Assembly: GCA_027295505.1 (NCBI GenBank) | Contig: JAPUKU010000108.1 | Coordinates: 1-34,625 of the forward strand | From: Acidobacteriota bacterium | GTDB taxonomy: Bacteria; Acidobacteriota; Polarisedimenticolia; JAPUKU01 | Length of the DNA stretch: 34,625 nucleotides | Direction of reading: 5' to 3' | Shown here: in pieces, positions 103 through 31,433 of the stretch | How the letters are laid out: each line of letters starts with the position of its first letter | How positions within the stretch are numbered: position 1 is the first letter of the stretch | Made by a program: the position numbers and the translations under genes | Notes under the pieces: model-generated | Told to the model about the DNA's origin: nothing | What the model saw: the letters and a program-made list of their open reading frames with translations, nothing else | Databases searched by the model: none

Positions 103-229
103 CGGCGGGAGTTGGGGCGCTCAGCCTGAACATCGACCCGCAGGCACGGCACCGAACTGTGGCAGCCTTCCCGGGCGCCAGCACAGGTGCACGGTATTTC
201 TTAGCGCATCCTGGACAGGCAACTTTCAC
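1..229 (-). CDS. MJ0042-type zinc-ribbon protein, N-terminal part (runs off left edge)
   Basis: The first 76 codons of a gene that continues beyond the left edge. It starts with GTG at 229, whose GTGA overlaps the TGA stop of the upstream CheW-like gene. The protein opens with a zinc-ribbon carrying CPGC at residues 5-8 and CRAC at residues 27-30, with the pattern of the MJ0042 family (CPxCxxxY, then CxxCG.xF). After about residue 36 it becomes a Pro/Ala-rich linker with a 17-residue repeat. In this family the ribbon is usually followed by a linker and a variable C-terminal domain, often a membrane or effector domain, which is not visible here. Its role is unknown; its coupling to cheW suggests that it belongs to the chemosensory cluster. 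Codons were read by hand from the reverse complement. The zinc-binding call is fairly sure; the function is not. Confidence 0.75.
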   Translation of the reverse strand, partial: MKVACPGCAKKYRAPVLAPGKAATVRCRACGSMFRLSAPTPAESTAPPEPAQPRAPTPVQPAAPPEPAQPMAPTPV

Positions 230-885
230 GAGGCTGGGTCCGCCGCGGCCCCGGCCGGAACGAGACGTTCAAGATCGATGAGAGAGACGACCTGCTCTGC
301 CACACGCGCCACCGCACACACGGCCTGAGAGGCGCCGAGAGCAGACGCAGGCGCGCTCAAGCCCTCCAGCTCGTCTGCTGGCAGGACCTTGAGCACCTGG
401 TCCACGACCATGCCGTAGCGCTCGCCTTCAATCACCACGACTACAATGCGGCCACCGCGCGCCGGTGCCGCCCCCAACAAGATACCCATGTCCACTACCG
501 TGACCGCATGCCCGCGGAGAAACAGCACGCCGCGCACCGCTGCCGCGCTACGTGGCAGAGGCGCGACATCTTTCATGGGCAGGACCTCTTCAATGCTGGA
601 GATCGGCAGGGCGTAGAGGGAATCGGTAACTTTCACGATCAGCTGGGTGTCGCGCACCTCCGCGGTTGCCGGTGCTCCTACCGGAACTGTCGACGACCCC
701 GGAGCCGGCTCATCGCTGCTGGAGCGCACCAGAGGCGGCAGTAGATCCGTGAGCACCTGCGGCTCAGTTGCCCTGGGCTCCAGTCCGGCGGTAACCGTAT
801 CTTTCTCAGGAGCTGTCGGCGTGTGAACCACCTTGCGCGCCCGCAGCCGGGCAGAACTGCGGCCTTTTTGCCGACGCTGGCTCAT
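226..885 (-). CDS. CheW-like scaffold protein
   Basis: A 219-residue protein. Residues 1-80 form a basic, low-complexity leader (RRQKGRSSARLRARK) and a Pro/Ser-rich stretch; residues 80-212 form a CheW-like beta-barrel domain. Recognisable pieces are YALPISSIEEVLPM, the RGVLFLRGHAVTVVDM turn typical of CheW (RGxxxxRGxxVPVVDL), and GMVVDQVLKVL. CheW proteins link receptors to CheA kinase at the inner face of the membrane. The start at 885 overlaps the cheA stop as ATGA, so the two are translationally coupled and probably made in fixed ratio. The roughly 80-residue N-terminal extension is longer than in normal CheW proteins (about 150-170 residues in all). No chemoreceptor gene lies nearby, so its signal input is unknown. 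The family call is firm; the particular pathway is inferred. Confidence 0.88.
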   Translation of the reverse strand: MSQRRQKGRSSARLRARKVVHTPTAPEKDTVTAGLEPRATEPQVLTDLLPPLVRSSSDEPAPGSSTVPVGAPATAEVRDTQLIVKVTDSLYALPISSIEEVLPMKDVAPLPRSAAAVRGVLFLRGHAVTVVDMGILLGAAPARGGRIVVVVIEGERYGMVVDQVLKVLPADELEGLSAPASALGASQAVCAVARVAEQVVSLIDLERLVPAGAAADPAS

Positions 886-2840
886 GCCGGGGCTTCCTCT
901 CTAATCAGTCTGGCAACGTCCAGCATCAGCGCCACCCGATCCCCCTCCAGCTCCGCGGCGCCGTGCACAGCGGGATGTGATCCGAATCGCTGTGGCAGGG
1001 GCCGCATCATGACCTCGCGATGGCCGAGCAACGCATCGACCTCCAGACCAATAGCGCCTTCAGGCCCGCGGGCCACCACCAGAGGTTGCCGCGCCTGACG
1101 ACCCTCGCCGGACGTCCGGAAGCCCAGAAGGTCTCCCAGGTCAAAGACCGGGAGGGCAGCGGACCCCCGCAGCAGGAAGCGGTCCCGCTTCAAGGCGCTC
1201 AGGTCCTCTCCCTTGAGGACTCGGCTCTCGAGCACCGAATCAAGCGGAAGACCGATGACCGCGCCGGCCGTGCGCACCAGGAACGCCGGCACCACCGCCA
1301 GGGTTGCCGGCACCACGAGCTCAAAGGTAACCCCCTGTCCCGGAGTTGAATGGACTCGAAGCACACCTTTGAGCGCCAGAACCCGCTCCCTCACCTCGTC
1401 AAGCCCCACACCACGCCCCGAAGTCTCGCTCACCTTGGATGCGGTTGAGAGGCCGGGATGAAAGATCAGCTCGTTCAGGTGGCGGGGGTCGCTGTCCGGT
1501 TTCAGACCGTGCCTCACCGCCGCCTCACTCAGCTTCTGGAGATCGAGACCCCGTCCGTCATCCACGATGCGCAAGGTCACGTTGTGGCCGCGCGGCCATG
1601 CCTCGAGCGTGATCGTTCCGTGCTCCGGCTTGCCGGCCGCCAGGCGTTCCGCCGGAGGTTCGATGCCATGATCGACCGCGTTGCGCACCAGGTGCAGCAA
1701 GGGTGCCAGTAACGTGTCCGCGACACGCTTGTCCACCTCGGTGCCTACACCGAGACAGCGGAATTCGATCTTCTTGCCGGTGCGCCGGGTAAGGTCGCGC
1801 ACGGTGCGATCCAGTCGCGACGCAAGCCTGCGGATGGGGATCATGCGCAGCTCAACTAGGCTGGTGTGAAACTGACTCATCGCGTGGGCCAACCTCTCGG
1901 CCAGCCGACTGGCATTCTTCAGATCGATCGACGTTTCGATTGCGCCCGGTGTCCCCAGGAGAAGTTGCTCGAGACGACGGGCGTCGAGCGCCAGCTCGCC
2001 GGCCCGGCTCAAGACCGGATCGAGCCGTTCGATGTCAACCCGCACGGTATGTCCCAGATCTTCCTCGGCGGGCGGCGGTACCGCGGCCGGCTGGATCAGC
2101 GGCTGCACGCGGCCCACATTTCCGCTGGCCTGGCGGACAGCTTCTGGATCTCCCGCGATCAGGATCACGAACTCAGCGCCGTCGGCCGTGGTACGTTCCG
2201 GGACCGACGCAATCACCTCGCCCGCCGGCTCCAACCGGCCTAACAGATCCTGAAGACCGGAACTCATTTCCTCGAGGCTCCAGCAGGCCCGCACCCTGCT
2301 GAGTGGAGTCTGCCGGCGGAGATGAAAATCAAGGCGGCTCTCTTCGTACTGGCTGAGCACCGAACGCAGCGAGGCCTCATCCACTGCAGGTGGCACGCTC
2401 TGCTCAGCAGGCACCTGCGCTGGCTCGTTTGCTGCCTGTCCCACCTCGGGAGGACACACTCCCACCAGCGGATCGGGGCTGGGGCTTTTCCCTTCCGCGA
2501 GCTGCCGGACCTCGGCCTGAATGGCCCGGCACGCCTCCCGCAGCCAGGAACAGATCTCGGGGTTCCAGGCCTGTTTGCCGAGCCGCAGGCCATCGAGACT
2601 ATCCTCCAGCTGGTGGGCGGCCGCCGAGAGGCCCTTCAGATCGCTCATGCCAGCCAGCCCTTTCAAGGAATGGGCATGCCGGAATAGCGCATGAAGCTTC
2701 GGCGGCCGGGCCTCAGCACGGCTCGCGTCCGCCTCCAGATGATCGATTCCGTCCCAGAACGCCTCGAGCAATTCCTCCGCCTCGGCGCAGAAGTCCCTGA
2801 GCACGGTGCTTTTAGTCCGCATCGTCAAATAGTCACCCAT
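882..2840 (-). CDS. cheA: CheA-family chemosensory histidine kinase (first copy)
   Basis: A 652-residue kinase. Domains in order: HPt (P1) at about 10-115 with the phosphorylatable His57 in HSLKG; a Pro-rich linker; a 160-250 module starting LSQYEESRL and ending GEVIASVP, which resembles the middle module of CheA/FrzE-like kinases of gliding bacteria; a dimerisation helix pair at about 265-345; an HATPase core with N box HLVRNAVDHG (Asn387), DDGRG (427-431) and GRGVGL (475-480); and a CheW-like C-terminal domain at 515-652. All catalytic motifs are intact and there is no fused receiver. It would pass phosphate to a receiver, most simply the DUF4388-receiver protein just upstream. It overlaps the following cheW by four bases. 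The start is ATG at 2840; an in-frame ATG at 2822 is also possible. It is unlike the second CheA at 28316, so the two are not a recent duplication. Confidence 0.93.
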   Translation of the reverse strand: MGDYLTMRTKSTVLRDFCAEAEELLEAFWDGIDHLEADASRAEARPPKLHALFRHAHSLKGLAGMSDLKGLSAAAHQLEDSLDGLRLGKQAWNPEICSWLREACRAIQAEVRQLAEGKSPSPDPLVGVCPPEVGQAANEPAQVPAEQSVPPAVDEASLRSVLSQYEESRLDFHLRRQTPLSRVRACWSLEEMSSGLQDLLGRLEPAGEVIASVPERTTADGAEFVILIAGDPEAVRQASGNVGRVQPLIQPAAVPPPAEEDLGHTVRVDIERLDPVLSRAGELALDARRLEQLLLGTPGAIETSIDLKNASRLAERLAHAMSQFHTSLVELRMIPIRRLASRLDRTVRDLTRRTGKKIEFRCLGVGTEVDKRVADTLLAPLLHLVRNAVDHGIEPPAERLAAGKPEHGTITLEAWPRGHNVTLRIVDDGRGLDLQKLSEAAVRHGLKPDSDPRHLNELIFHPGLSTASKVSETSGRGVGLDEVRERVLALKGVLRVHSTPGQGVTFELVVPATLAVVPAFLVRTAGAVIGLPLDSVLESRVLKGEDLSALKRDRFLLRGSAALPVFDLGDLLGFRTSGEGRQARQPLVVARGPEGAIGLEVDALLGHREVMMRPLPQRFGSHPAVHGAAELEGDRVALMLDVARLIREEAPA

Positions 2841-2874
2841 GACCTGCCCGCAGGGCGGACGGTCTACCCGGTTT

Positions 2875-2903
2875 TATTTAGTGTCCGGATTGAGGCTTTT
2901 CAA
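2875..2903 (-). promoter_or_regulatory. Candidate internal promoter for cheA (first copy)
   Basis: The 111-base gap between the DUF4388 gene and cheA is the largest inside this cluster. On the minus strand it holds TTGAAA (2903-2898), a 17-base spacer and TAAATA (2880-2875). The -35 matches consensus at 5 of 6 positions, but the -10 only at 3 of 6. It may give cheA-cheW its own transcription; this is weak evidence. Confidence 0.35.
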
Positions 2904-2951
2904 CCGACAAGCAGCTGCACTGGAAGAAGATCCTCGGGGAACCGGAGCGGC

Positions 2952-4634
2952 TCAGCCCGCGACTGGAGAGGCGTTGACGCGCTGCTGGAGGGCGGCGTTT
3001 TCGAGGGACAGCCCGAGCTGGACCAAGAAGATCTCGAGGCTGCGTAGATCCGGAAGCGGGGTGCGCCCCTTGGCATTGTCAACGTAAAGGAGGGCGATCA
3101 CCTGGCCGGCGGCAACGAGCGGCATGAGCCCGTACTGAGTGGGGCGCAGCGGCCCGAGCGCTTCCACGATGGGCATCGCCCCAGGCTCCTCTTCGGGCGA
3201 GCCGATTCGCAGCGTGCGGTCGGAGGCCGTAGCCACAAGGAGCGGATTCTCGTCGGCATCGAACGACAGCTTGCTGACATTCGTCTCCACGTTCGATTCT
3301 TCGCCGGTGGGACCAAACCCGCCGAAGGCGACGTACCGGTGGCGGCGGCGCACGAACAGGACTGCTCGCTCCAGGAACTCGGAGGCCACGCGCAAGACCA
3401 GGATCCAGGCCTCGGAGGGATTCTCCGGCTGCCGCAGTTCACCCATGAGGCCGCGCAGGAAACCGACGGGATCGGTCACCCGCCGGCCGCTGCTTCCGGA
3501 TGAGGTACCGGGTTCGAGGCCGGCAAGGGGATCGTCTGGATCCGCGTTGGAGCGTCTCGGCCCGCTACGTATCTGCCACACGAGGGTGTGCGCCAGATCC
3601 TGGATCGCTGCCGGCAGCGCCCCCAGCGGTGTCGCGGTCAGATCCGGCTTCGAGACCAGAGCCTCGATCGGCAGTCCCTGAGTCTCCTGACGGTACTCAT
3701 CCTGACGACCCGCGCACAACCCGATCACGCGTGCCTGGATTCCATCCTGCATCAGCAGGCGCGTGAATTCGATGCCCCCTAGAAATCCTTCACCCGAGCT
3801 GTCCGGCATCAGGAGATCCACAATAACGATCGGCTTGCTACCCCCTTCAGTCCACTCTGTACAGATGCCGAGCGCCTCGGTCGCTCCGGAGGCGGTGGAG
3901 ACCCGGAACCCCTCGCTCTCCAGCTCGGTGGCAAGACGGGATCGATAAAGGGCCTCATCGTCCAGGATCAGAACCCTTGTGGCCTCCGGCGGATCGCTCT
4001 GGGTCTGAGGCCCACCCACGCTGGCCCTCCGGCGGGCCGGCTTGGCGGGAGGACCTTCACCGGGGCCGGGCACCGGATCCTCGGGCGCCGCAGGCGGCTC
4101 TGGGACGGGCGGCTCCCCCAGCCCCCGCACCGCCTCATCGACCTGGCGCGTGGCTTCAATCAGAAGATGCTGCGGACTGATCCCCTCGGTGTGGATCCAG
4201 CGCCCCGAGCGCCGGGCGTTTCCGAGCAGCGTGGCTTCCTCGATGAGCTCAAACGAGAAGTTGCCGCTGTCGAAACCAAACAGCTCTCCGATCGTGGTCT
4301 GGATCTCACGGCTCTGCACGGCACGCAGGGCCTCCGCGTCCACATCCGTGTTCTCAATCAGGAATGCTGCCGGATCCACGGAGCCGTCGGCCGGAAATCC
4401 GCGCAGCGCGGCCGCCGCCTGCTCACGCCCCATGAGGCGGTGTTCGACCAGCAAATCGTCAATTCGCCCGCTGCGTGTCGGAGTGCCAGCCGCGACGATG
4501 CAACCGTCACGAAACGCCACCCAGACTTGGCCCGTCGCCACCCTCAGTCGCAGGAGGCCCGTGCGGTGGCTGAGGTTGATGATCTGCAGGATGTCGGAGA
4601 GCGGCAGATCCTCCAGGTTCCCGATGAGGCTCAT
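2952..4634 (-). CDS. DUF4388 / receiver / GAF-like response regulator
   Basis: A 560-residue, three-part cytoplasmic protein. Residues 1-170 match the DUF4388 (PATAN-like) type: opening MSLIGNLEDLPLSDILQIIN, then TGLLRL and a FRDGCIVAA strand. Residues 170-215 are a Pro-rich linker. Residues 218-355 form a receiver with acidic pair Asp225/Asp226, phospho-acceptor Asp273 in VIVDLLMP, and Lys329 in SKPD. About eight extra residues (DSSGEGFLG) sit just after the acceptor Asp loop. Residues 385-550 look like a GAF-type sensor fold (AVLFVRRRHRYVAFGGFG, then GQVIALLYVDN). The next gene downstream is cheA, 111 bases away, so it is a likely phosphate target of that kinase. Its start overlaps the nusB stop as ATGA. 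No DNA-binding or enzymatic output domain is visible, so the output is unknown. The receiver and DUF4388 calls are solid; GAF is likely. Confidence 0.85.
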   Translation of the reverse strand: MSLIGNLEDLPLSDILQIINLSHRTGLLRLRVATGQVWVAFRDGCIVAAGTPTRSGRIDDLLVEHRLMGREQAAAALRGFPADGSVDPAAFLIENTDVDAEALRAVQSREIQTTIGELFGFDSGNFSFELIEEATLLGNARRSGRWIHTEGISPQHLLIEATRQVDEAVRGLGEPPVPEPPAAPEDPVPGPGEGPPAKPARRRASVGGPQTQSDPPEATRVLILDDEALYRSRLATELESEGFRVSTASGATEALGICTEWTEGGSKPIVIVDLLMPDSSGEGFLGGIEFTRLLMQDGIQARVIGLCAGRQDEYRQETQGLPIEALVSKPDLTATPLGALPAAIQDLAHTLVWQIRSGPRRSNADPDDPLAGLEPGTSSGSSGRRVTDPVGFLRGLMGELRQPENPSEAWILVLRVASEFLERAVLFVRRRHRYVAFGGFGPTGEESNVETNVSKLSFDADENPLLVATASDRTLRIGSPEEEPGAMPIVEALGPLRPTQYGLMPLVAAGQVIALLYVDNAKGRTPLPDLRSLEIFLVQLGLSLENAALQQRVNASPVAG

Positions 4635-25302: not shown

Positions 25303-25331
25303 TTGCAGCGACGCAACCTAGAGCCTAAATT
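25303..25331 (+). promoter_or_regulatory. Weak candidate promoter of the cheR operon
   Basis: Plus strand TTGCAG (25303-25308), a 17-base spacer and TAAATT (25326-25331), about 32 bases before the ATG at 25363. Only 3 of 6 and 4 of 6 match consensus. Chemotaxis genes may use another sigma factor; no clear sigma28 or sigma54 site was seen in this 134-base divergent gap. Confidence 0.3.
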
Positions 25332-25362
25332 CGGCGTGGCTCCACCTTACACCCGTCCATTC

Positions 25363-26202
25363 ATGCCAAGCATCAGCATCGATCCACTCGCCGAGATTGC
25401 CCGACATGTTGAAGAGCGCCACGGCATCGATTTCGGCCGCTACAAACCACGCTGTCTGATGCGCCGGCTGAACGTGCGGATGCGCGCCGTGGGCGCCGAT
25501 GACCTGGAGGCATACGCCGCCTATCTGGTCTCACATCATGAAGAGGCGGACCGGCTCGTCGAGGCCCTGGCCATCAACTTCTCATTCTTCTACCGGGATC
25601 GGGGGCTGTTCCGTATCCTGGGCGAGCAGGTGCTCCCCGACCTGGTGCGACGGTTTCCCACGGGCCCCCTGCGTATCTGGTCGGCCGGCTGCGCGGCAGG
25701 CGAGGAAATCTACTCGCTGGGGATTCTCGCCCTGGAGACCCTGGCCGAGCGGGATCATGGCCGTCTGGTGCTGATCGGCACGGACATCGACCCGCCGGCC
25801 CTGGAGGAGGCCAGGGAGGGCATTTATAACCGGTCCAAGGTTACATCTCTTGACAACCCCTTGATCGAGCAATATTTTCACCCTGATGCAGCAAGTGGAA
25901 TGTTGCGGGTGAGAGATGCGTTGCGCACGCGTGCCCAGTTCCGGCGCGCCGATCTTCTGGGGCCAACTCCCTACCGTGGCGTCTCCCTCATATGTTGCCG
26001 AAACGTGATGATTTACCTGCAGCCACAACATCAGGAACGCATCCTGGAGCACCTCGCCTCGGCACTGCGGCCCGGCGGGGTTCTCGCGCTGGGGCGCGTC
26101 GAGCGTCTCACAGGCGACAGCCGCCGCTGGTTCGACACGGTGGACGCTGCCGAGCGTGTCTACCGGCGTAAGTGCATGGCCGGGGAATCACAATGCAGCT
26201 GA
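25363..26202 (+). CDS. cheR: CheR chemoreceptor glutamate methyltransferase
   Basis: A 279-residue SAM enzyme that methylates glutamates of chemoreceptors. It has an N-terminal helical domain (1-75) and a Rossmann domain with [15 protein letters not shown] (107-121, the SAM loop), [18 protein letters not shown] (138-155) and [10 protein letters not shown], the CheR hallmark. The usual NVTSFFR near residue 72 reads [12 protein letters not shown] 25363 is chosen; an earlier TTG at 25303 would add unlike residues and lies inside the candidate promoter. No clear ribosome site precedes it. First gene of the chemotaxis operon; its only in-operon receptor is the MCP just downstream. No CheB esterase is present to undo its action. 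Confidence 0.94.
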
Positions 26203-27437
26203 AGCTCGCTTTTGCCTTTCTGTGCGTGGCCGGGGCCGTCCTGGTGTCGAATCTGCTGGTCAGCGCTTTCGTTCCATCCGCTAAACACCCGCTCTTTCAC
26301 ATGGTGGGGCTGGCCTGCACCGACATTCTCATCGGCCTGGGCGCGGCCCACTACCTCTCCCGGTATTTCACGCGGCACATCAAAGCGCTCGCGGCGACCA
26401 GCACCATCATCAGCCAGGGAGATCTGACGCAGCGCGCTTCCCTGGACAGCGACGACGAGGTCGGGGATCTGGCGCGGGCCTTCAACATCATGCTCGACAA
26501 CCTGATTAAGGTGGTGCGAGAGGTATCCTCCACGGGCCGCACGATCTTCGACTCGGCCCAGTCCCTGTCCGCCACGGCCGAGCAAATGAACGCCTCTACC
26601 CAGGAAATCTCTTCGACGATTCAAAACATCGCCCAGGGCGCCGAGAACCAGGCATCCATGGTCAACAAGACCTCCAAAATCACCAAGGCCCTGGCCAGTT
26701 CGGTCGAGGAAATCGCCCGCAAGGCGGAGCTGGTCAACGAGAGGGCCACCGAGTCCGGCTACAAGGCAAAACAGGGTGGAGAGTTTGCCAACCTGGCCAT
26801 GGAAAAAATCACCGAGGTCGCGGAGCGCATTCAGGGGACGAAAGACGCGGTGGAGGGCTTCCGAGCCCGGGCGCTCGAGATCAACAAGACCGTCGATTTC
26901 ATCACCACCATCGCCTCACAGACCCACCTGCTGGCTCTCAACGCCGCCATCGAGGCGGCGCGGGCTGGCGAACAGGGCCGGGGCTTCGCCGTGGTGGCCG
27001 AGGAGGTCGGCAAGCTGGCTGAGAACGCCAAGGGATTTGCCGATCAGATTTCAGAGCTCGCCGGCCGCATCAACAACGAATCGGAGAGCGTTCTCAACTC
27101 GATGACTGAGTCGACACGCGCCGCCCGCGAGGGCCGCGAGGTCGTGCAGGAAGCGAACCGCACGCTGGAGGAGATCGTCAGCGCGGTGCTGACCACGGTG
27201 GAGGCCGTGCAGGAGATCTCCCAGCTCACTCAGGCCCAGACCCAGGGAGCCGCGGAGCTCGTACAGGCCATCGAGGAGATCTCGAAGATCGCCGAGGACA
27301 ACGCCGCCGGCACACAGGAAACTTCCGCGGCCACCCAGGAGCAGACAGCCTCGATGCAGGAGCTTTCGGGATCGGCGCAGGCCCTGGCACGCACCTCGGA
27401 CACTCTCAAGGGACTTGTCTCGGTGTTCCGCATATGA
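26193..27437 (+). CDS. Methyl-accepting chemotaxis protein with minimal periplasmic part
   Basis: A 414-residue receptor. Two membrane helices (about 4-27 and 36-54) are separated by only about eight residues, so there is essentially no ligand-binding domain. A HAMP-like region follows (about 55-105, with [19 protein letters not shown]), then a long coiled-coil signalling domain. The hairpin tip is [19 protein letters not shown], then [20 protein letters not shown]. The receptor would sense membrane state, cytoplasmic signals or a partner protein. There is no CheR-docking pentapeptide at the C-terminus (ends VSVFRI). Two highly conserved tip positions differ (Asn to His, Arg to Gly). ATG 26193 is preferred because GGGGAA lies nearby; earlier GTG 26172 and ATG 26175 exist. 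It overlaps cheR by ten bases and cheW by four. Confidence 0.92.
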
Positions 27438-27916
27438 CAACCGCCGCGGCACAGCAGCTGAATCTCGAGTTCACCATGGCGCGGGAGCGATTCGCCCTCG
27501 ATGCCGCTCTGATCCAGGAGATCACCGAAGTTCCGGTTGTGCAAAGGGTGCCCAAAGCGCCCGCCGTGGTCGCGGGACTCGCCGATATCCGGGGCCGTGT
27601 GGTGACCCTAATCGATCTCGAGCACGTGTTCGGTGTCGATCAGCGTTCCGAGGGTCAGCCTGTGGCGCTCATCCTGGCCCCGCCCGACGCGCATCTCGGC
27701 CTCCTGGTGCACGGCCAGCCGCAGGTCGTACGCCTGGATCTGAGCACCGCCGAACCCGCGGGCGGACTCATCGAAAGCACCTTGCTCGCATCAGACAAAC
27801 TTTATAACATCGTTAGCCCTCGCCGGGTTCTCGCCTACTGCGAGAAGCAGATCCTCGATGTATTCCGGATCGTCAGTGGGGACGGACAATCCACGCCATC
27901 AGGGAGGCACGCATGA
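27434..27916 (+). CDS. cheW: CheW adaptor protein
   Basis: A 160-residue CheW domain protein that couples the receptor to CheA. Features: [22 protein letters not shown] at the start, [20 protein letters not shown] in the middle, which is the RGxxxxLxDL pattern, and [15 protein letters not shown] then [19 protein letters not shown]. It is normal in length, without the long leader of the CheW-like gene at 226-885. ATG 27434 overlaps the MCP stop as ATGA, and it overlaps cheY by four bases, so MCP, CheW and CheY are translated as a coupled set. Identification is sure. Confidence 0.92.
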
Positions 27917-28287
27917 GCAATAAAGTCCTCATCGTCGACGATGCTCTCTTCATGCGCTCGATGATCAAGGACATCCTGGTCAACTCCGGAGAGTTCGAAG
28001 TTGCTGGTGAAGCCAGCAACGGCCGTGAGGCCGTGGATCGCTACGAGGAGCTACAGCCCTCACTGGTGACCATGGACATCGTCATGCCGGAAATGGACGG
28101 CATCGAGGCGACCAAGGAGATCCTCCAGCGCGACCCCAAAGCGATCGTGATCATGTGCAGCGCCCTGGGCCAGGAGGCACTGGTCATCGAGTCGCTCGCA
28201 GCCGGCGCCAAGGATTTCATCGTTAAACCCTTCTCGGCGGAGCGGGTGCTCAAGGTCATTCGCAGCATTCTCTCATCGCAGTCCTGA
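27913..28287 (+). CDS. cheY: CheY single-domain response regulator
   Basis: A 124-residue receiver, the expected soluble target of the CheA at 28316. Acidic pair Asp9/Asp10 in VLIVDDALFM, phospho-acceptor Asp55 in VTMDIVMPEMDG, Ser83 in MCSALGQE and Lys105 in FIVKPF, so all active-site residues are present. The GEASNGREAVDRY stretch and MCSALGQE are like CheY of Thermotoga and Firmicutes, fitting the CheC/CheD content. ATG 27913 overlaps the cheW stop as ATGA and has AGGGAGG upstream inside cheW. It would act on a flagellar motor or another target that is not in the window. Confidence 0.96.
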   Translation: MSNKVLIVDDALFMRSMIKDILVNSGEFEVAGEASNGREAVDRYEELQPSLVTMDIVMPEMDGIEATKEILQRDPKAIVIMCSALGQEALVIESLAAGAKDFIVKPFSAERVLKVIRSILSSQS

Positions 28288-28315: not shown

Positions 28316-30298
28316 ATGGACGCCCGAAAATATCTCGATCTGTTCCTTTCCGAAGCGCGGGAACATCTAGATCAGATCGCGCGCATAGGCCGCGAGCTCT
28401 CAGCTTCCTCCCCTCCCGAGTCCCTGCACGCCCTGTTCCGCTCGTTTCACTCGCTCAAGGGCATGGCGGCTTCCATGGAGTTCAAGTCCCTCTCCGAGCT
28501 GGCGCACGCCGTGGAGGATCTTTATGACCAGGCGCGCCAGGGGAAGAGAGCGATCGATGCCGAGCTCAGCGAGATCACGCTCGATGCCGTCGACCTGATC
28601 ACCACCCTGATCGATGAAATTGTCGCCAACGGACAGTCATCCTCCTCCACGGAAGACCTCACCGCCCGGGTGCGCGCGTTGCTTGCGGGCACCGCTCCCT
28701 CAACCGGAGTCGATAACTCCCCGGGAGGCGGTGGATCCAATGCGCGCGACGGGGGTGAAGGCGTCCCGGCACCGCAGGCTCCACCCTCCGGAGCACAACC
28801 CGCCGCGTCCGGCGACGCTGTTGACAAGACCTCCGCGTCCTCCGGCGCCTCCGCCGGAACGATCACCCTGGAGGTGCACTTCGGGGTGTCGACCGGCGCA
28901 CCCCTGCCGGCGGCGCGAGCCATGGTCGCCCTGAAGCGCCTGCAGACCCTTGGCGCCGTGGATCAGTGTGACCCCGATCCGGCCCAGTGGGCCGGATCCG
29001 CCTTCGCCGGCAAGGTGAAGGTCAGGCTCCAATCCAGCCTCACTCCCGAAGCCATCATCCGTGAGATCACCGCTCTTGCCGACATCAGCACCTGCCAGGT
29101 AAACCCTACGGAGAAGACAGGCGCCCGTCCGGCGTCGGCCGCCGTACGGCCTGCCTCGTCGACGATCCGGGTGCGCACCGACGTGCTCGACCGGCTCATG
29201 GACGGCGTGGGCGACATGCTCGTGGCCTCGGCCCTGGTCGAGCAGCAGCTTCCCCGTTCCCCGGCGAGCACCCCGGTGGTGCAGAGACTCAAGCGCGCCC
29301 TGACGCGCCTGCACGATGACGTTCTGGAACTGCGCATGGTGCCGTTCGATTTCATCGCGCAGCGCTTCTACCAGTCGGTGAGGCACCTGGCCCAGAACCT
29401 AAGAAAGAAGGCCTCGCTCGAGATCAGCGGCGCGGATGTGCGCATGGACCGCGCCATGCTCGAGGAGCTAGTGGATCCGCTCAATCACATCATACGCAAC
29501 GCCATCGATCATGGAGTGGAAGACCCGGAACAGCGTGCCGCCGCCGGTAAGCCGGTGGACGGACGAATCCGGCTGGCGCTCGAGAGACAGGGAGAGGTCG
29601 TGCGCGTGCGGCTGTCTGACGACGGCCGCGGCATGGACCCGGCACGCATTCGCGAGGCGGCGGTGCGTAAGGGATTCGTGACGGAGGATCACGCCCGTGC
29701 TCTGAGCGAGGAAGACGCTCTCATGCTGACCACGATCCCCGGATTCTCGACCGCCGACAAGCTCAGCGAGATCTCAGGGCGCGGCGTCGGCATGGACGTC
29801 GTGCGCACCCGCATCGAGAGTCTGGGGGGCCACATGAGGATCCTCTCCCGGTTCGGCGAGGGAACCGAGATCGAGATGGTGCTGCCGCTCACGGTCGCGG
29901 TCATCGACTCACTGCTCCTGCGACTAGGCTCCGAACTGTACGCCGTTCCCATTCACTCGGTGCAGCAGACGCTCGAGGTACACCCCGATCAGGTCCAGTA
30001 CTCAAACGGCAACGCCGTGCTGCGTTGGGCCAATCACACGGTGAACCTCAAGGCCCTTCGCGACCTGCTCGGTGAAGGAGACGCGGGTGCGTGGTCAAGC
30101 ACTTGCCCTACCGTCGTGTATGAGGCCGAGGGGCAGATGTTCGGACTGGGAGTCGATTCGGTGATCGGCAAACGCCCGATCGTCGTCAAACCGCTCAAGA
30201 GCCCGCTCGAGAACCTGCGTGAGTACTCGGGGGCCACGGTCCTCGAGGACGGAAAGATCGCGCTCATACTGGACTTGGCAAACCTGGCAGGCATGTGA
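28316..30298 (+). CDS. cheA: CheA chemotaxis histidine kinase (second copy)
   Basis: A 660-residue kinase. HPt at 1-120 with His45 in FHSLKGMAA; a Ser/Gly/Pro/Ala-rich linker (125-180); a P2-like CheY-docking domain (about 182-265: TITLEVHFG, RAMVALKRLQTLGAVDQ, then KVKVRLQS); dimerisation (285-350, VRTDVLDRLMDGVGDMLVAS); HATPase with N box IIRNAIDHG (Asn395), DDGRGM (435-440) and GRGVGM (488-493); and a CheW-like P5 (525-660). All motifs are intact. The P2-like domain, lacking in the first CheA, fits a partnership with the adjacent CheY. It lies 28 bases after cheY. Identification is secure. Confidence 0.96.
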   Translation: MDARKYLDLFLSEAREHLDQIARIGRELSASSPPESLHALFRSFHSLKGMAASMEFKSLSELAHAVEDLYDQARQGKRAIDAELSEITLDAVDLITTLIDEIVANGQSSSSTEDLTARVRALLAGTAPSTGVDNSPGGGGSNARDGGEGVPAPQAPPSGAQPAASGDAVDKTSASSGASAGTITLEVHFGVSTGAPLPAARAMVALKRLQTLGAVDQCDPDPAQWAGSAFAGKVKVRLQSSLTPEAIIREITALADISTCQVNPTEKTGARPASAAVRPASSTIRVRTDVLDRLMDGVGDMLVASALVEQQLPRSPASTPVVQRLKRALTRLHDDVLELRMVPFDFIAQRFYQSVRHLAQNLRKKASLEISGADVRMDRAMLEELVDPLNHIIRNAIDHGVEDPEQRAAAGKPVDGRIRLALERQGEVVRVRLSDDGRGMDPARIREAAVRKGFVTEDHARALSEEDALMLTTIPGFSTADKLSEISGRGVGMDVVRTRIESLGGHMRILSRFGEGTEIEMVLPLTVAVIDSLLLRLGSELYAVPIHSVQQTLEVHPDQVQYSNGNAVLRWANHTVNLKALRDLLGEGDAGAWSSTCPTVVYEAEGQMFGLGVDSVIGKRPIVVKPLKSPLENLREYSGATVLEDGKIALILDLANLAGM

Positions 30299-30319: not shown

Positions 30320-30931
30320 ATGCTTTTTTGCGATCTGGATAACCGCCAAGTGGACGCGCTGCGGGAAGTGGGCAATATTGGCGCCGGTCATGCCGCCACC
30401 GCCCTGTCCCAGCTCGTCGGCCGTTCCGTGAGCCTGTCCGTTCCCAAGGTCGATGTGGTTCCCTTCCCGCGCATCTGTGCCCTCCTGGGCGGGCCGGAAA
30501 CGGAAGTGGCCGCCCTCTACATGAAGGTGTACGGGGACACGAGGGGCAATATACTCATCGTCTTTTCGCCGGACAATCTGGCAACGCTCGCGGGGCAGAT
30601 GCTCGGCAAGCCGGTGTCGTCGGTGCACTCCCTGTCGGCACTCGAGCGCTCTGCGATGCTGGAGCTGGGAAACATCCTGTCTTCCGCCTACCTGACCTCC
30701 ATCAGCCAGCTCCTGCACCTCAGCCTTATCCCCTCAGTTCCTTCCCTGGCCATCGACATGGTCGGGGCGATACTGGAGGCACCGATTCTGGAGATTAGCC
30801 GTGTGGCGGACACGGCCCTGGTGCTGCAGACCGAGTTCCAGGACACCAACAACGCGTTCGCCGGGCATTTCTTCCTGCTCCCGGATCCGCAATCTCTCGA
30901 CACTATGCTGGACGCTCTTTCCCGTTCGTGA
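30320..30931 (+). CDS. cheC: CheC chemotaxis phosphatase
   Basis: A 203-residue CheC/CheX-family protein that dephosphorylates CheY-P and binds CheD. Two copies of the active-site signature ExxN followed by Pro 23 positions on: Glu16/Asn19/Pro42 and Glu115/Asn118/Pro141, matching the CheC family consensus. The start ATG at 30320 has a strong GGGAGGG site just upstream (in the AAGGGAGGGAACG run). It follows cheA by 21 bases and is one base from cheD. CheC plus CheD without CheZ fits a Bacillus/Thermotoga-like adaptation scheme. Both sites look intact, which argues for an active phosphatase rather than a FliY-like or degenerate form. Confidence 0.93.
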   Translation: MLFCDLDNRQVDALREVGNIGAGHAATALSQLVGRSVSLSVPKVDVVPFPRICALLGGPETEVAALYMKVYGDTRGNILIVFSPDNLATLAGQMLGKPVSSVHSLSALERSAMLELGNILSSAYLTSISQLLHLSLIPSVPSLAIDMVGAILEAPILEISRVADTALVLQTEFQDTNNAFAGHFFLLPDPQSLDTMLDALSRS

Positions 30932-30932
30932 A

Positions 30933-31433
30933 ATGGCCATCCAGACCGCTGCGATACTCGAGCAACCGGTACCCATGGGCCGGCTGCTCGTCTGTCCCGT
31001 GCCGGCGGTGTTGACCGTGGTCGGACTCGGATCGTGCGTGGCGATCTTCCTGCACCATCCTGATCACCGCATTGGCGGACTCGCGCACGCCCTGCTGCCC
31101 TCGGGAAAGCGCTCCGAGCGCGAGCGCACCCCCGGAAAGTTCGTCCCTTCAGCCATCGAACTCATGCTTCAGAAGTTCGATGACCTGGGTGTGCGCGGCA
31201 AAGGCCTGGTCGCGAAGCTGGTGGGCGGAGCCTCGATGTTCGTAGGCGCAACCCGTGAGCGCCAGGGCATTGGAGACCGCAACATCCATGCGGCCCAGAA
31301 GGTGCTCGCCGAGCGCGGGATCCCGGTGGTGGCGAGCGATACCGGAGGTCACAGTGGCCGCAGCCTGCGAGCCTACACCCAGGACGGCCGGCTGGAAGTA
31401 AGCACACTTCGACAGCCGCCGCAGGTGCTGTGA
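30933..31433 (+). CDS. cheD: CheD chemoreceptor glutamine deamidase
   Basis: A 166-residue enzyme that deamidates receptor glutamines to glutamate and is tuned by CheC. Catalytic Cys35 lies in GLGSCVAIFL and His52 in GGLAHALLP, the usual Cys-His pair. KLVGGASMF and GIGDRNI are further family pieces. ATG 30933 is chosen because it follows the cheC stop with one base between; a longer frame reaching 30801 lies inside cheC and is not conserved. It is the last gene of the operon. No U-rich terminator was found in the 34 bases before the convergent thioredoxin gene. Confidence 0.94.
   Translation: MAIQTAAILEQPVPMGRLLVCPVPAVLTVVGLGSCVAIFLHHPDHRIGGLAHALLPSGKRSERERTPGKFVPSAIELMLQKFDDLGVRGKGLVAKLVGGASMFVGATRERQGIGDRNIHAAQKVLAERGIPVVASDTGGHSGRSLRAYTQDGRLEVSTLRQPPQVL

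Follow-up and report, generated by a model that had tools for sequence, protein, structure and literature searches.

A chemoreceptor without a sensor domain, probably Dif-like, in an Acidobacteriota genome

The Dif chemosensory system of Myxococcus xanthus regulates EPS (PMC12691611, PMC12288465), and type IV pili have been placed upstream of it by Black et al. 2006, as that study is cited elsewhere (PMC12691611, PMC12288465, PMC2577667); EPS output and pilus input have been shown in M. xanthus alone. Its receptor, DifA, is 413 amino acids long, has two transmembrane segments, and belongs to class 44H (PMC3945109). The Dif-like clusters of Geobacter sulfurreducens and G. uraniireducens encode 44H receptors with two transmembrane segments and a short outside part (about 3-10 amino acids), together with cheA, cheW, cheY, cheC, cheD and cheR, and the authors of that work suggest that other proteins may do the sensing for receptors whose outside parts are small (PMC2577667). 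Descriptions of Dif-like systems in Acidobacteriota were not found in a literature search, most subscription papers lying outside its reach.

Here, we analyse a 34,625-nucleotide stretch of DNA (the window) from a draft genome of an Acidobacteriota bacterium, and within it a chemoreceptor gene, mcp, and its neighbours. Because architecture, gene order and phylogeny agree, we regard the receptor as Dif-like, with a probability of roughly 0.75 that it is Dif-like, serves surface behaviour linked to pili or matrix, and senses via a partner. The range of Dif-like systems, known from Myxococcus and Geobacter, would thereby take in a branch of Acidobacteriota which is mostly without flagella and has been little studied for motility. 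The signalling tip of the receptor also carries unusual residues at two positions, and these prove to be of different age and standing.

The receptor gene and its chemosensory cluster

The gene mcp is the second of an intact co-directional run, cheR-mcp-cheW-cheY-cheA-cheC-cheD, in which all Pfam matches lie above cut-off and the stop of one gene overlaps the start of the next at three junctions (cheR/mcp, mcp/cheW and cheW/cheY). The genes of the run, and the segments of the receptor, are:

25303..26202, + strand: cheR, receptor methyltransferase (Pfam CheR 5e-45, plus CheR_N); overlaps mcp
26193..27437, + strand: mcp, sensorless and probably Dif-like chemoreceptor, 414 aa; HAMP and MCPsignal (Pfam)
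26205..26270, + strand: first transmembrane helix of the receptor, aa 5-26 (hydropathy)
26271..26300, + strand: loop between the helices, aa 27-36, the least conserved segment of the receptor
26301..26360, + strand: second transmembrane helix, aa 37-56 (hydropathy)
26355..26504, + strand: HAMP, aa 55-104 (Pfam PF00672, 1.3e-12)
26784..27290, + strand: MCPsignal including the tip, aa 198-366 (Pfam PF00015, 8.1e-37)
27434..27916, + strand: cheW, coupling protein (Pfam CheW 8.9e-19); its start overlaps the mcp stop
27913..28287, + strand: cheY, single-domain response regulator (Pfam Response_reg 7.2e-29)
28316..30298, + strand: cheA, kinase, with Hpt, P2, dimerisation, ATPase and CheW domains (Pfam)
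30320..30931, + strand: cheC, CheY phosphatase family (Pfam CheC 5.8e-19, two matched repeats)
30933..31433, + strand: cheD, receptor deamidase family (Pfam CheD 3.3e-26)

The likely start of cheR is an ATG near 25363, and the ATG start of cheD at about 30933 was taken from the sequence, the mechanical open reading frame beginning at 30801. The mcp frame is intact (26193-27437, + strand), running from an ATG at 26193 to a stop that ends at 27437. An alternative GTG at 26172 would give a longer frame, and the ATG is favoured over it because the relatives start M-R/Q-L-K-L; a different, later start codon was also considered and is unneeded, since the ATG at 26193 agrees with the relatives.

The product is a methyl-accepting chemotaxis protein (MCPsignal PF00015, 127.1 bits against a cut-off of 34.6), and a Pfam search of its 414 residues gave no domain beyond HAMP and MCPsignal. 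Hydropathy leaves only about 8-10 residues between the two helices, so that the earlier note was right to describe a receptor with no periplasmic ligand domain; the short helical hairpin is also present in the homologous relatives, which makes the absent sensor a rule of the family. The second helix keeps small residues throughout the family (G48, A51, A52 and S56), as would be suitable for contacts between this helix and a partner. The methylation-site consensus is matched four times, which, with cheR and cheD both present, suggests that signalling is regulated. An alignment of the signalling domain with that of Thermotoga maritima TM1143 (PDB 2ch7) runs for about 305 residues and needs no gap. 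TM1143 is assigned to class 44H (PMC2577667), and the hairpin is therefore placed in the same class, with the difference that the tip of TM1143 has QTN and EIR where this one has QTH and EVG.

The source genome (2.92 Mb) is a draft, 95.49 percent complete and spread over 259 contigs, and it encodes two receptors. The other receptor (L001, G000:C24:14220-14765) has the tip AAIIAAQAGE; at the two positions taken up below it has the common residues, Asn and Arg, with Ile and Gln in place of the usual Glu and Arg at the sites that we take to match E385 and R388 of Tsr; Ile at the Tsr E385 position is found in 13 of the 33 other acidobacterial receptors sampled. The window also holds a second chemosensory group on the minus strand, at 226-4634, which reaches the contig end and has no receptor in view:

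2952-4634, - strand: protein with DUF4388 and a receiver domain
882-2840, - strand: second CheA
226-885, - strand: CheW of the second group

Apart from the main che operon, contig C29 (L168) carries a cluster of a receiver-domain protein, another cheR and cheB, and contig C150 (L166, 12000-20000) carries a pair of neighbouring cheW genes and then the gene for a 415-aa receiver protein, with neither cheA nor a receptor gene alongside.

Relationship to Dif-like systems and a proposed surface role

The gene order around the homologues is alike in close relatives, with the full R-mcp-W-Y-A-C-D arrangement in one of them (G049), and Desulfobacterota homologues have the order R-mcp-W-Y(-A), the flanks examined reaching as far as cheY or cheA. 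We built an outgroup-rooted maximum-likelihood tree of the receptors in which both unusual tip positions were masked. In this tree the acidobacterial clade groups beside the short receptors of Desulfobacterota; support at the base of the clade is moderate (SH-aLRT 86, bootstrap 78-98) and some nodes are weak.

By description, DifA of M. xanthus is closely alike, at 413 versus 414 amino acids, with two transmembrane segments, a HAMP domain and a class 44H hairpin (PMC3945109, PMC2577667). The partners of the M. xanthus system are also of the same types – cheW, cheY, cheA, cheC and cheD – and it differs in having difB where the acidobacterial cluster and Geobacter have cheR. The haloarchaeal sensory rhodopsin transducers HtrI and HtrII, whose two helices are joined by hardly anything outside the membrane and which are driven by a membrane partner, are compared with the acidobacterial receptor here for mode of action only, and they differ in that the acidobacterial che cluster holds no gene for a rhodopsin-like partner.

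Both the input and the output of the system are inferred. The receptor would itself bind no outside ligand, and its input would come from a partner in or at the membrane – by analogy with DifA of Myxococcus, one reporting on type IV pili – or from some alteration of the membrane or of the cytoplasm. The signal would pass through the transmembrane helices and HAMP to the hairpin, which would control CheA through CheW, with CheY and CheC tuning phosphate flow and CheR and CheD modifying the adaptation sites. The output would be surface behaviour, involving pili or extracellular matrix, rather than flagella.

The distribution of motility genes bears on that output. FlhA was not found in the source genome (95.49 percent complete) or in 16 of the 17 other carrier genomes checked, G010 being the single FlhA-bearing carrier (1/18), and PilT-family matches are present in 18/18 carriers, though PilT is common in general and its presence is weak evidence. 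With FlhA missing in 17/18 and PilT-family matches in all, flagellar steering is unlikely and a surface function likely. It is thus highly improbable that the receptor serves an ordinary flagella-steering chemotaxis system, even though CheC and CheD typify flagellar systems like the one in Bacillus, where class 44H is used too; the missing FlhA largely refutes this reading. Somewhat less improbable, and still unlikely, is that the receptor is a constitutive scaffold that keeps CheA active in arrays, with input arriving via other receptors or the second CheA system. Its want of a sensor domain, the poor conservation of its loop, and the presence of a second cheA-cheW pair at 226-2840 would all be compatible with such a role. 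However, the receptor retains HAMP and its adaptation sites, and the cluster retains cheR and cheD, which suggests regulated signalling; mixed arrays are also doubtful because the only other receptor in the genome has a quite different tip. We prefer a Dif-like receptor that takes its input from a partner.

Two residues of the signalling tip

The tip reads QTHLLALN and EVGKLA, as the earlier note had pointed out, and both codons were read directly:

26925..26927, + strand: codon CAC of His245, in QTHLLALN; a lineage trait
27009..27011, + strand: codon GGC of Gly273, in EVGKLA; not seen in any close relative

By E. coli Tsr numbering we take the counterparts to be N376 for His245 and R404 for Gly273; the residues presumed on the same numbering to match Tsr E385, R388 and N381, the best-known trimer contacts, are unchanged. 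A search of the accessible literature returned nothing on a role of Tsr N376 or R404. We compared 94 distinct receptor tips among the matches listed, most of them from some 80 named genomes across many phyla, and this set, a broad sample of distant receptors rather than an orthologue search, has Asn in 92/94 and His in 1/94 at the first position, and Arg in 88/94 and Lys in 6/94 at the second. It is therefore reasonable, as a general statement, to call this Asn and this Arg nearly invariant among known receptors. The further claim of an altered tip holds as a private change for the Gly, which no close relative shares, and fails for the His, which is present in 28 of 30 relatives.

These 30 homologous acidobacterial receptors, the window protein among them, were obtained by aligning the best matches from 60 relatives, with the sampled phylum recognised as Acidobacteriota from an RpoB tree (a named Acidobacteriaceae genome being nested within it, and the RpoB rows of G010, G042 and G044, taken in the wrong frame, being disregarded). 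Besides the 28 with His, one has Asn and one Gln. At the same position His is rare among other receptors of Acidobacteriota (2/33, with Asn in 30/33) and is lacking from the Desulfobacterota matches (0/18; Asn in 15/18, the rest Asp or Thr). Four further acidobacterial receptors that resemble the family have Asn (two) or Glu (two), so His is not universal; QTE is the tip of two homologues, L225 and L226 (G012 and G008). Across 199 Acidobacteriota genomes, the QTH pattern occurs in 27 and QTN in 77. The His receptors form one acidobacterial clade, adjoining the Desulfobacterota short receptors, although both sites were masked in the tree, and the His was for this reason probably gained once. 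On these alignments His245 is best read as an old substitution of the acidobacterial branch that is compatible with function, and not as a local defect.

At the second position the same 30 receptors have Arg in 24, Ser in five and Gly in one, the window protein, and the Ser carriers fall within one subclade of the tree. The GGC codon differs by a single base from CGC, the most frequent codon among the relatives, and likewise from AGC (Ser), so that a point mutation, a neutral variant and an assembly error all fit. We read Gly273 as an apparently recent, private single-base change whose effect would be doubtful or nil.

With an old and conserved His and a Gly that is recent or an error, the two changes are unrelated. 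That counts against the suggestion that they form a joint adaptation of this receptor, rewiring its kinase coupling or blocking receptor mixing. In its favour, both positions are strongly conserved among receptors at large, and the only other receptor in the genome is of another type; but the separate histories of the residues (His in 28/30 relatives, Gly in none) and the unchanged state of the three best-known trimer contacts leave it little credence. That Gly273 reflects a mistake in assembly or sequencing, or a neutral variant within the population, is a more serious alternative, which we still consider somewhat unlikely. It would fit a fragmented draft of 259 contigs, a codon one base off CGC, and a residue seen in no close relative. 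Against it stand the intact mcp frame, the unrelated acidobacterial receptor L207 (G045:C51:8958-9842), which reads EVGRLA, and the Ser (AGC) of a sister branch at the same site, from which it follows that site 273 does drift.

The conserved His remains a mild puzzle. It is doubtful, though conceivable, that the Asn-to-His change, fixed in most acidobacterial Dif-like receptors, is a functional variant of the tip; if it were, it might act, e.g., through pH- or charge-dependent trimer packing, or by keeping arrays apart from those of QTN receptors. As a conserved natural exception at a nearly invariant tip position, it could serve as a control for testing the role of that Asn.

Several of the more distant QTH receptors (L015-L020 and L022-L024) lie in che clusters of other kinds, a number of which have no CheY next to the receptor, and this counts against the Dif-like reading. 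QTH is also found in a second type of receptor, one whose tip is AAIIAAQAGE, in at least two genomes, G042 (L216, G042:C37:4420-5370) and G057 (L227, G057:C88:9462-10400), in both of which the Dif-like receptor is QTH as well. The idea that every receptor of these two genomes has become adapted to His was considered and rejected, because other receptors there have Asn. Two QTH matches per genome are present in several more genomes, belonging to families f14 and f39.
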